Below are positions 12,199 through 17,254 of a DNA stretch of 64,000 bases, piece by piece. This DNA comes from Centipeda artemidis DSM 19719 (GTDB lineage: Bacteria; Bacillota; Negativicutes; Selenomonadales; Selenomonadaceae). Position numbers and translations under genes: made by a program. The stretch spans positions 62,001 through 126,000 of the forward strand of contig NZ_AUFU01000007.1 in assembly GCF_000426665.1 (NCBI RefSeq). The letters run 5' to 3'. Under the pieces are notes generated by a model that saw only the letters and a program-made list of their open reading frames with translations, was not told where the DNA came from and did not search any database. Numbering within the stretch: the stretch's first letter is position 1; the number at the start of each line of letters is the position of its first letter.

Positions 12199-12293
12199 GA
12201 AACGTCACATTCCTTTCCCCATTTCCTTGCATCAAAAAAACTGCATAGGAAAACATATTTATTATTTCTACATCCCCGAAAAAAATCCTTTTC

Positions 12294-12322
12294 ATTCTAG
12301 CACTTTTCCCCCAAAAAGTGAA
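12294..12322 (-). promoter_or_regulatory. Extended -10 promoter for the flgB operon
   Basis: TTCACT (12317-12322), 17-base spacer ending TGC, TAGAAT (12294-12299) on the minus strand. It starts just after the stop of the P-loop/Asp23 gene. It looks like housekeeping sigma, not the flagellar sigma-28 form. Confidence 0.65.
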
Positions 12323-12330
12323 GAAGGCTT

Positions 12331-13179
12331 TTATGCGGGTGCTGCCGCCGGAGCAACATGCAGACTTTTAACCAGAATATTGACCTCATGCACGACCATC
12401 CCCGTCATGCGTTCGATCTCATAGCACAGCTCGCTTCGAAGCGTTTCCATAGTGTTTGTAATCTCATGCCCGTAGGAGAATACGAGCTCGGTTGAAACCG
12501 TAATCCCAAGATCGTCGTCTCCATTGACCACATGCTGTACATGGGTACTCCCGACACCATATACTTCGTCAATTTTTTCTGCGACGATGTGCACAATATT
12601 TTTGATCACGGAGTCGTCGATGACGAGTTTTCCGTAATAACTGAATACGGGTCGTACGATCGAACGCTCCCCGAGGCGGCGCCGCTTCGATGAGGAGGTC
12701 TTGAAAAAAGATTTAATTGGATCAATGAGGTAGCCGGAAAAATGAGGTTTTAGTTCAATGCTCGGCACGGGAATAATGTGCTCGCCTTTCTTGAGGCGAT
12801 GGTACTGCGCGATTTCCATATCTTTTTTCGAGGCGATATCCTCAATGCGGATGATCTTGCTGATCGTACCGATGCGCAGCGTCTTGGCAATCTTCTGCAC
12901 CATGTTCTCGGAGGTGCCGAGCACGAGAATGCGGCGCGGCGCGGCGGCGGCGATTGCCTCGCGCACCATTGAAGCGTGTCCCGCCAAAACGAAAATCGCA
13001 CGCCGAACCGCCATGATGCGGTTCTTCTCCTTCTTCGCGGAAATGCCGCCGATAACCTTACCGTCTTTGATGAGAATGCCGTCGTCGATGATGGCGTCCG
13101 CGCCGTTCTTTTGGGCGACCCACAGCGCGCGGTGGCTTTTTCCCGTGCCGCTGGGGCCGACAAGGGCGATCACGTCCAT
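12331..13179 (-). CDS. P-loop NTPase fused to Asp23/Gls24-like domain
   Basis: 282 residues, function unknown. Residues 8-15 (GPSGTGKS) are a Walker A loop, followed by an ATPase-like half to about 150 with DAIIDDGILI and a second strand RRILVLGTSE. The C-terminal part (about 165-275) has the pattern of Asp23/Gls24 envelope stress proteins (GKLVIDDSVIKNIV, IDEVYGVGSTHVQ, VVHEVNILVKSL). It lies between the PHP gene and the flgB promoter. An alternative view is one unusual NTPase family; the Asp23 call rests on pattern only. Confidence 0.7.
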   Translation of the reverse strand: MDVIALVGPSGTGKSHRALWVAQKNGADAIIDDGILIKDGKVIGGISAKKEKNRIMAVRRAIFVLAGHASMVREAIAAAAPRRILVLGTSENMVQKIAKTLRIGTISKIIRIEDIASKKDMEIAQYHRLKKGEHIIPVPSIELKPHFSGYLIDPIKSFFKTSSSKRRRLGERSIVRPVFSYYGKLVIDDSVIKNIVHIVAEKIDEVYGVGSTHVQHVVNGDDDLGITVSTELVFSYGHEITNTMETLRSELCYEIERMTGMVVHEVNILVKSLHVAPAAAPA

Positions 13180-13210
13180 GCGTGTCCCTCCTCTTTATGA
13201 TTCCAAGCCG

Positions 13211-14044
13211 TTATGCGCCGTGCGGCGGCCGGTAGAAATTTTCCGCGTAGACATCCTCGATGGTAAACTGACCGAGTTCGCCCGGCTCGCGCCCTGTAAA
13301 GCCGCGGTAGTCCGAACCGCCCGAAACGAAAAGCCCGTGCCGCTGCGCGATTTCAAGATAGTGCTGCGTGTCCTGCATGTCGTAGCTTGGATAAAACACC
13401 TCGATGCCGCCGATGCCACGCTCGATGAGATCCGTGACCACCGCTTCGTCACCGATGGATTTCGGATTGGCGAGCACAGGCACACCGCCTGCCCCCTTGA
13501 TGATGTCGATGAGTTCGTCGGGCGCGAGGCGAAAATGCGGCACATAGGCAGGTCTGCCGCGCATAAGGAGCTGCTCGAAACAGGGACGTATGGCGTCGAA
13601 ATAGCCTTTTTTGACGAGTACGCGCGCCACATGGGAGCGGCCGATAGCCTTGCACATTCCCTCGTCGGTCAGCACCTCTGTCTCACCGATCTCGTAACCA
13701 AGCCCTTTGAGTTTATCCACAATTTCAGTAAACCGTGTCCACCGTGCTTCGCTGAGTTCTTCGAGTTTTTCTTGGAGTCCTGCGTTATAGATATCGATCC
13801 CATAGCCGAGAATGTGCACCGTCCGATCCGGATAATCGGCACTGAATCCGACGCCCGGAATGATGCGCAGCTGACTTCCTGCCGGGCAGCGGCCGCTCTC
13901 ATAGAGTTCGGTCACGCCCTCCACACTGTCGTGGTCGGTAATCGATATATAGCGAAGTCCCGCAGCCTTTGCCGCTTCTACGATCTCCTCCGGGGTATCC
14001 CTCCCATCGGAAAAGGTCGTATGGATATGCAAATCGCTTGCCAT
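13211..14044 (-). CDS. PHP domain phosphoesterase (YciV/RNase AM-like)
   Basis: 277 residues. A single PHP metal-dependent phosphoesterase domain: DLHIHTTFSDG at 4-14 and ITDHDSVEG near 36 supply metal ligands, with further histidines near ANPKSIGD and SGGSDYRG. Relatives act on 3',5'-nucleoside bisphosphates or trim RNA 5' ends (YciV/RNase AM). Twelve bases from ymdB and near rny, which supports a role in RNA turnover; substrate is inferred. Confidence 0.82.
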   Translation of the reverse strand: MASDLHIHTTFSDGRDTPEEIVEAAKAAGLRYISITDHDSVEGVTELYESGRCPAGSQLRIIPGVGFSADYPDRTVHILGYGIDIYNAGLQEKLEELSEARWTRFTEIVDKLKGLGYEIGETEVLTDEGMCKAIGRSHVARVLVKKGYFDAIRPCFEQLLMRGRPAYVPHFRLAPDELIDIIKGAGGVPVLANPKSIGDEAVVTDLIERGIGGIEVFYPSYDMQDTQHYLEIAQRHGLFVSGGSDYRGFTGREPGELGQFTIEDVYAENFYRPPHGA

Positions 14045-14055
14045 GTAAAATCTCC

Positions 14056-14885: not shown

Positions 14886-15446
14886 TCACGAACGATTGTA
14901 AACAACGACCTGATCATGCTCGCGAATACCGACCAGACGGTCATGCAGCGGAATATCCCGCACGGCAACGAGCATCCGCTCGAGGGTCTCGTGCTGGAGG
15001 CTGCTGAACTCTGTATCGAGCACATCCATATTGTGCGGATCGACGAGGAGCTGATCCCCAAACTTGTCCGTCATAAGGCGCACAATGAGACTTAGCTCAC
15101 GTTCAGTCAGTTCCGTCATGGGGCGCAGGAGATGCAGCATCGTGAGTGCATCGTACCGCTCATATGCCGTCTGCGACTCGCACAGAATCCCGTCCTCCAG
15201 TGCGTGATAAGTCTCAATGCTCTCGATCAAAAATGACGAAAACGTATCCATTTCCGCGTCGGACACTGCCGCGCGAATGGTAAAATCAAGGGTCAGCCCG
15301 CCGCCGGCGGGATCATATGACACGGAAGCGATCTCCGGGAAACAAACGAGCATGGAGGCAAGCAGCTGCACGCCGGGGCGTGCCTGTTCGCGCGCCTGTC
15401 TGCCGTTTTTTCGCGGAGCGAAATGCCTGCGCAAAAAATCAAACAT
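14886..15446 (-). CDS. Conserved hypothetical protein
   Basis: 186 residues, no family recognised. A basic N-terminus (residues 1-22), no membrane helix, then an acidic, Leu-rich alpha/beta body. GGGGAGAG precedes the ATG. It lies between ymdB and the diguanylate cyclase in the same direction, so it is probably part of the rny-ymdB transcript. It may be a small cytoplasmic partner; I cannot say more. Confidence 0.75.
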   Translation of the reverse strand: MFDFLRRHFAPRKNGRQAREQARPGVQLLASMLVCFPEIASVSYDPAGGGLTLDFTIRAAVSDAEMDTFSSFLIESIETYHALEDGILCESQTAYERYDALTMLHLLRPMTELTERELSLIVRLMTDKFGDQLLVDPHNMDVLDTEFSSLQHETLERMLVAVRDIPLHDRLVGIREHDQVVVYNRS

Positions 15447-15478: not shown

Positions 15479-17254
15479 CTATTCACCCTGCCGTACTTTC
15501 CCCAGGCCAAGGCAGTAGACCGCGTTGCGCCCCTCTTTCTTTGCCCTGTAGAGCGCTTCGTCCGCATTCTTAAAGAGCTGCAGCTCGTTGTCACGCTCCG
15601 GATCAAAATGGGCGACGCCGATACTGACCGTCACATTGCCGTCAAACGCCATCTTTGCCGCCTCGACGCGCCGGCGGATTCGTTCGCCCACGCGCCCCGC
15701 AAGCTCGAGCGTGGCGCCCTGCAGGATGACAAAGAACTCGTCTCCGCCCCAACGGCAGCCCGCATCCGAGCCGCGGATGGTGCCCGAAATGGCGTCTGCA
15801 ACCGTCAGCAGCACTTTGTCCCCAACATCATGCCCATAGGTATCGTTGACGCCCTTAAAGTGATCGATATCCATCAGCATGACGGTCAGCAGCGTCCGAT
15901 TCTCCTGTGCGTCGCGCACTGCCTCTTGGAGCAGCCGCTCCATCTCACGGCGATTGAGCAGGTTCGTCAGCGCATCGCGGCTTGCCAGCTGGCTCAGCCG
16001 ACGGTTGGCACTGTTCAGTTCCTCCTCCGTAACGCGGACAAAATGCGACATGAAGGCAATCATCTTGCGGTTGTAGGAGAGCTGCGCCACGCGTTTGGGA
16101 TGCAGCTCTACATCGCAGACGCCCTCGGCGTTCTCCTTCATGCCGACCAGCATGACATTCAGCTGTGCGGCGACAATTTTTCTCCCCGCGCGGCGCACCT
16201 CGCCAAACATGAAGGATGCTGCGGCGGGAAACGCCGCACATGCGCCAAGCTCACTCGTCACATCATCACCGAGCAGAAGATAATGCCCGACACACGCCGC
16301 CCCCATAACTACCTGCGGCGAAAAATCCGCCATGTGATGCGCGTTCTTCGCCGCCGTCGAGAGAATTGCATAGGGATCACCATATGCAAGGCGCAGCTTC
16401 GTCCCCTTTGCAATAGGAACGCCAAAGGTCAGCTCTCCGCTGCCCTCCTCGATTTTAATCGGTACACGCGCGGAGATCGACCCATCCTCCTCTTCAAAGC
16501 AGAGGGGAAAGAGCGCGGCGTCCGCGCCGAAATTATCGTCGCCCTTAATACCGAAATACCGTTCGTAAATTTTAAGCGGCATATCGCCGTCGAGTTCTTT
16601 AATCGTGCAGCCGTCCACGTGGGTCGCCACGATCTCACGCCCGAGCATGTTCCAGCCAAAATTGCGCGTCACACACGCCGCAAGAGTCTCCCCTCCAAAG
16701 ACGACGGCGAGCGTTCCCCGAGTCATTTCCTCATCGTCCGCAAGGATATAACCGCGTGCCTGCATCGGCGCGGCATCGACAAACGCCCCGAACACCTCGA
16801 TACGCTCGTCAATATCCGAAAACGACGCAAGAATATCGTCAATCCGATCCATCATACCGACGACAAAAAAACCTGCCAGTTTCGTATGGGGACGCTCTGC
16901 CACAAAATCTACAAAGTGCCTTTTCGTCGCTTCGTCCGCAGTCTCTGAGCGGATCATGAGGAAATCCGCCTGTGAGGACTCGAACGTGAGGAACACGAGC
17001 ATAATTCCGTCGTTATCAAGGTGCATCTCCGCCATTTTGAGTGCGGACGTATGAACGAGAATCCGCGCCGCAGGAAAGAGTTCCCTCATGCTGTCCCTCA
17101 GGGCGCGGGCATCCTCAATCGGCACTGAACACGGCAGCACCGCCGTGATGAGGAGTGTTTCTATATGAGGGAGCCGGTCAAGTTTTTCCTTTGCCTTCTC
17201 CGCCGTCCGGCGGACATCCTCCGCCCTTGCGGCAATATATGATAGTTGCTGCAT
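15479..17254 (-). CDS. FIST-domain sensor diguanylate cyclase (GGDEF)
   Basis: 591 residues, cytoplasmic. Residues about 30-225 look like FIST_N and about 230-380 like FIST_C, a small-molecule sensor pair. A short helical linker leads to a GGDEF domain (about 430-591) with intact GGDEF at 503-507 and an RxxD inhibitory site (RGSD) exactly five residues before it. It should make c-di-GMP from two GTP and be product-inhibited. Downstream of rny. The PilZ protein at 31365 is a likely effector. Ligand of the FIST module unknown. Confidence 0.85.
   Translation of the reverse strand: MQQLSYIAARAEDVRRTAEKAKEKLDRLPHIETLLITAVLPCSVPIEDARALRDSMRELFPAARILVHTSALKMAEMHLDNDGIMLVFLTFESSQADFLMIRSETADEATKRHFVDFVAERPHTKLAGFFVVGMMDRIDDILASFSDIDERIEVFGAFVDAAPMQARGYILADDEEMTRGTLAVVFGGETLAACVTRNFGWNMLGREIVATHVDGCTIKELDGDMPLKIYERYFGIKGDDNFGADAALFPLCFEEEDGSISARVPIKIEEGSGELTFGVPIAKGTKLRLAYGDPYAILSTAAKNAHHMADFSPQVVMGAACVGHYLLLGDDVTSELGACAAFPAAASFMFGEVRRAGRKIVAAQLNVMLVGMKENAEGVCDVELHPKRVAQLSYNRKMIAFMSHFVRVTEEELNSANRRLSQLASRDALTNLLNRREMERLLQEAVRDAQENRTLLTVMLMDIDHFKGVNDTYGHDVGDKVLLTVADAISGTIRGSDAGCRWGGDEFFVILQGATLELAGRVGERIRRRVEAAKMAFDGNVTVSIGVAHFDPERDNELQLFKNADEALYRAKKEGRNAVYCLGLGKVRQGE

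Follow-up and report, generated by a model that had tools for sequence, protein, structure and literature searches.

A conserved protein of the Negativicutes and many Clostridia that joins a P-loop head to an Asp23-like tail

Although Asp23 proteins abound throughout the Gram-positive bacteria, what they do at the molecular level is unclear. In S. aureus, Asp23 forms filaments and is attached to the membrane through the anchor AmaP (PMC6954212); the B. subtilis family member YqhY has been connected with acetyl-CoA carboxylase and with lipid synthesis (PMC5437119). Such standalone proteins are about 130-150 amino acids long and lack a P-loop domain. Here we describe a protein of an oral Selenomonas, encoded in a 64,000-nucleotide stretch of DNA that we call the window, in which a P-loop head is joined to an Asp23-superfamily tail. 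While the Asp23 family is known, this architecture appears to be undescribed: a literature search limited to open-licence papers found no paper on it, in keeping with the earlier note on this DNA, whose author knew of no function for the pairing. Databases presumably name these proteins after their Asp23 tail. An Asp23-like protein with a conserved head of nucleotide-binding type offers a testable biochemical handle, namely an enzymatic activity whose loss could be connected with a phenotype in the envelope or in metabolism.

The gene and its parts are as follows.

12331..13179, minus strand: P-loop/Asp23 fusion gene, 282 amino acids with an ATG start (open reading frame, Pfam Asp23, orthologues)
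13187..13192, minus strand: Shine-Dalgarno-like AGGAGG, 7 nt before the ATG of the fusion gene (sequence)
12787..13179, minus strand: P-loop domain, residues 1-131 (AF2 pLDDT, weak Foldseek matches)
13135..13158, minus strand: Walker A motif GPSGTGKS, residues 8-15 (conservation)
13078..13086, minus strand: DDG, residues 32-34, at the end of strand 2 (invariant in 32 sequences and in 21 divergent ones)
13033..13041, minus strand: SAK, residues 47-49 (conservation)
12637..12786, minus strand: linker, residues 132-181, with HxIPxPxxExK and VRPxFS motifs (identity, dN/dS, pLDDT)
12355..12636, minus strand: Asp23-like domain, residues 182-275 (Pfam, hhalign, alignment, fold)

The fusion gene and its two-domain product are confirmed. 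An AlphaFold model built from a 51-sequence alignment contains two separate domains, residues 1-131 and 187-274, mostly with good confidence. Residues 182-272 match Pfam Asp23 (PF03780) with E=4.6e-11 and 43.5 bits (cut-off 28), and in a profile-profile comparison by hhalign the tails of the fusion family align with 21 standalone Asp23 proteins at 98.4% probability (E=5.9e-15). The earlier note, which had read this chain as an ATPase half followed by an Asp23-like half, was thus right about the architecture; the finding it had named as fatal to that reading, a single NTPase fold with no Asp23-like domain, was not what emerged, because the second domain is Asp23-like by both Pfam and HMM comparison. 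The tail is modelled as a ferredoxin-like fold resembling the C-terminal domains of CDF transporters, which Foldseek also placed near it (TM-score to target up to 0.77). All 51 aligned members gave a Pfam Asp23 match at E<=0.1. Among very divergent members, several tails score under the Pfam cut-off, and at two loci (L162, positions 377-1162, and L163, 6454-7254) Pfam does not recognize the tail at all, while the head motifs and overall length are kept. That the tail fades from Pfam while the head motifs stay argues that the head is the better constrained part.

The protein begins with MDVIALVGPSGTGKSH, in which residues 8-15 form the Walker A motif. In an AF2 run on the N-terminal domain (81 sequences), pLDDT exceeds 90 over most of residues 1-120, and the model has a strand at 2-7 followed by a helix from 14, so that Walker A ends the first strand. 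We assessed conservation in four alignments of 32, 51 and 81 sequences and a deliberately divergent set of 21. The Walker A consensus across them is GxSGTGKS, as expected of the P-loop NTPase superfamily, and G8, G11, G13, K14 and S15 are invariant even among the most divergent members. Across the family, the P-loop, DDG, SAK, GTS, Arg and HxIP motifs are invariant or nearly so: K14, S15, D32-D33, K49, T89-S90, R128, H134 and P137 are unchanged in all four alignments, and SAK is invariant in the 51- and 81-sequence alignments, with K49 invariant and S47 and A48 at least 90% conserved in the divergent set. The P-loop, DDG, K49, T89-S90, R128 and H134 persist even where the Asp23 part drops below Pfam detection. 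No classical Walker B acid follows the third core strand of the head, as strand 83-88 ends in GTS, which lacks an acid, and the invariant acidic pair at 32-33 ends strand 2. This acidic pair of DDG is a candidate magnesium or substrate site.

The segment between the two domains is the most constrained part of the protein. Mean pairwise identity is 0.56 for the linker (132-181), 0.51 for the head (1-131) and 0.30 for the tail (182-275), and in the divergent set R176-P177 become VRP- or VKP-like. Within the genus, dN/dS is 0.015 for the linker, 0.042 for the head, 0.089 for the tail and about 0.05 for the whole gene, all rough values because dS is near saturation, and they indicate purifying selection on all three parts. 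The AlphaFold model gives residues 132-186 a pLDDT below 50, with no confident fold, and the 81-sequence run reproduced this picture. Strong constraint on a segment that looks disordered points to folding induced by the binding of a nucleotide, a partner or another subunit.

The union of a Walker A head with an Asp23-like tail is not peculiar to this genome. A search with the protein found it in 40 of 41 relatives, and among the Negativicutes it is present in 247 of 250 genomes (232 of the 234 of high quality), including genomes of only 1.3-1.4 Mb; full-length orthologues on this scale mean that the fusion is not a chance event. In a sample of 299 Bacillota genomes, a profile of the head matched in 129 at E<=0.001. 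All but two of these matches reached E<=1e-49, the exceptions being a 30-residue contig fragment and a match at 8.6e-4, which leaves 127 of 299 genomes, more than 40%, with the fusion. Every one of these 127 heads sits in an open frame of 269 amino acids or more, so that no head in the sampled genomes lacks room for a tail. One genome alone carries a second copy, on another contig and with an identical score. Apparent extra fusions in frames of 489-557 amino acids in one genus were set aside; the one that we read (L142) appears to owe its extra length to read-through from upstream in GC-rich DNA.

Named loci include those of Selenomonas, Pectinatus, Anaerovibrio, Megasphaera and Phascolarctobacterium, and beyond these Alkaliphilus, Geosporobacter, Tepidanaerobacter and three Atribacterota bins. 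A tree of the family, made by a quick method and weak in its deep forks, agrees broadly with taxonomy: Atribacterota, Veillonellaceae and Selenomonadaceae mostly fall into the groups one would expect. No relative was found in viral contigs, and PADLOC returned no defence-family match. The fusion is ancient, vertically inherited and essentially single-copy in Negativicutes and many Clostridia, and its presence in nearly all Negativicutes and in so many sampled Bacillota means that it probably does a basic cellular job. Because it is near-universal in Negativicutes, is kept in 1.3 Mb genomes and has a head that matches no curated family above threshold, it is a promising candidate for a housekeeping function that has been overlooked. 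PF03780 itself matches in 293 of the 299 Bacillota genomes, in a handful of which the sole match may be the fusion. The genome studied here also encodes a separate standalone Asp23 of 139 amino acids, which makes the fusion an additional paralogue and not a replacement. The neighbors of this standalone gene, as we read their sequences, are presumably efp, an AmaP-like gene and nusB.

As to function, we tentatively favor, at somewhat below even probability, an NTP-dependent enzyme or switch in which the linker couples a catalytic head to a module of the Asp23 type that serves in assembly or docking. The head would bind an NTP and probably hydrolyze it or transfer its phosphate, using the P-loop, D32-D33, K49 and R128. 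The linker, from H134 to R176-P177, may close on the nucleotide or relay its state. The Asp23-like domain could self-assemble, or dock on an Asp23-type or membrane-associated partner, and assembly and nucleotide turnover would thereby be coupled. Nucleotide dependence is plausible from the invariant P-loop residues; an envelope role is possible, its basis being analogy with other proteins of the Asp23 family. The role is likely to be a housekeeping one, related to envelope or lipids and not to motility. We also considered, as a rather doubtful proposal, that the head represents an undescribed family of P-loop kinases or transferases that works only when joined covalently to an Asp23-like module, and that the two form an assembly, driven by nucleotide and either cytoplasmic or located at the membrane, which is a core function in Negativicutes and many Clostridia.

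Alternatively, the protein may be a metabolic enzyme, either a small-molecule kinase or a transferase like IPT or MiaA, with a tail that serves only for oligomerization and has no envelope role. In favor of this, the head is conserved far better than the tail, and its weak Foldseek matches (E of 0.014 and worse) include, as well as FtsY, gluconate kinase, CMP kinase, adenylate kinase and isopentenyltransferase, the best E for a small-molecule kinase being 0.017. Of the divergent members, three (L159, L152 and L147) score above the Pfam IPT cut-off and a fourth (L161) just reaches it, and the head aligns with MiaA in hhalign over 99 columns at 86.5%. However, the window protein scores 13.9 bits against the IPT cut-off of 20, no match to MiaA, IPT or a kinase runs end to end, most profile matches cover the P-loop only, and there is no fixed metabolic neighbor; we consider this alternative somewhat unlikely. 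Searches of Pfam and NCBIfam gave no family above threshold for the head, and sequence searches of the PDB gave nothing above noise. The hhalign profiles of Cmk, shikimate kinase, ABC, RecA, Ffh and EF-G aligned over 50 columns or fewer, mostly at the P-loop; those of MiaA, DnaC and RadA were the exceptions to this limit.

The surroundings of the gene bear on two further alternatives, and they include the following.

13211..14044, minus strand: PHP-domain gene, directly upstream of the fusion gene across a 31 nt gap (Pfam PHP, synteny)
12199..12330, no strand: 132 bp between the fusion gene and flgB, containing an extended -10 promoter-like site at 12322-12294 on the minus strand

On the same strand, the PHP gene, ymdB and rny lie upstream and flgB lies downstream, so the gene does sit between RNA-decay genes and flgB, as had been noted. 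In most Negativicutes loci examined the PHP gene is directly or closely upstream, usually with ymdB and rny farther upstream, and its product could be a functional partner of the fusion. In many uncultured Clostridia the adjoining genes include cmk, a PlsC-like acyltransferase, EF-G and a trmR-like gene, and clostridial loci also have rpsA and pnp, several of these labels being our own reading. The neighbors thus differ by lineage (PHP/ymdB/rny, cmk/EF-G or dnaD/dnaC), with no consistent envelope theme.

We made several other observations in these loci. The PHP protein best resembles models of 3',5'-nucleoside bisphosphate phosphatase and RNase RNM, far below their cut-offs. Primosome genes like dnaD, dnaC or both adjoin the fusion in eight loci from several clostridial lineages, in either orientation (L143, L148, L149, L151, L171, L172, L174 and L175). 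In the window, a FIST_N, FIST_C and GGDEF chain at 15479-17254 (minus strand), a predicted sensor diguanylate cyclase, lies between rny and ymdB; it also occurs in S. noxia (L057) and was not found at this place in the other Selenomonadaceae loci examined. A 186-aa open reading frame at 14886-15446 (minus strand), with no Pfam or NCBIfam match, is kept beside rny and ymdB in 17 related loci. In loci of the S. ruminantium type (L058, L059 and L061) ymdB is separated from the PHP gene by spoVS; the window has no spoVS there, and the two genes are 11 bp apart (14045-14055).

The Negativicutes neighbors rny, ymdB and the RNase-like PHP gene, together with the clostridial set of cmk, rpsA, EF-G, trmR-like gene and pnp, would suit a role in RNA metabolism or translation, with an Era-like P-loop domain followed by an alpha/beta RNA-binding module, and Era heads the Foldseek list for the full model. 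The match to Era is nevertheless poor (TM-score 0.24, rmsd 15.9 A), no good Foldseek match to the whole chain was found, and the C-domain is closer to CDF C-terminal domains in fold and to Asp23 in sequence. Housekeeping clusters make such neighbors common, and we regard this role as improbable. Control of flagellar gene expression or assembly, at which the earlier note had hinted, is very improbable: flgB lies 132 bp downstream on the same strand and adjoins the fusion in 14 of 14 genomes of the window genus, but in no other lineage examined, and flagellar rod proteins occur in only 150 of the 250 Negativicutes of which 247 carry the fusion, genomes that lack rod genes included, with Megasphaera, Colibacter and Phascolarctobacterium keeping the fusion and two of the three Negativicutes that lack it (G371 and G537) having rod proteins, so that synteny and distribution together rule out flagella as a general function. 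The extended -10 site is a consensus match only; the scanned region held three such sites, with 1.5 expected. It would fit a flagellar operon that is transcribed on its own.

The fusion resembles several known systems and differs from each of them. Era likewise combines a P-loop head with a small alpha/beta tail, but the Era tail is a KH RNA-binding domain, whereas that of the fusion is Asp23-like by sequence. HPr kinase (PF07475) or a PEPCK-like protein was considered for the head because of the IIDDG...SAK pattern and was rejected, since hhalign, against a profile of two HprK sequences only, gave 31% over just 29 columns and no such structure appears in the Foldseek list. MiaA and IPT (PF01715, PF01745) share with the head the P-loop and an Asp at the end of strand 2; the likeness spans only about 100 residues, and the fusion head is joined to an Asp23-like domain. 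The gluconate, CMP and shikimate kinases share the P-loop and the order of a short core, and the conserved Arg after the fourth strand of the head could act like a LID residue; unlike in these kinases, to which the structural likeness is weak and no sequence match runs end to end, in the head a beta-hairpin and the SAK motif come after an acidic DD pair. The fusion is also related to Asp23, Gls24, YqhY and YloU (PF03780), with which the C-terminal 90 residues of the fusion are homologous and share the same pattern of strands and helices. The 21 aligned standalone Asp23 proteins have a Gly-rich segment, GMSGGIAGGIAEMLGRKN (GMSGG...GRKN), which is absent from all 17 fusion tails aligned with them, so that the two halves of the fold are joined by a short turn. 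Because of this absence we do not file the fusion as an orthologue of Asp23, YqhY or YloU but, judging by its sequence, as a protein with an Asp23-superfamily domain, whose tail may assemble or bind in a manner different from that of the standalone proteins.
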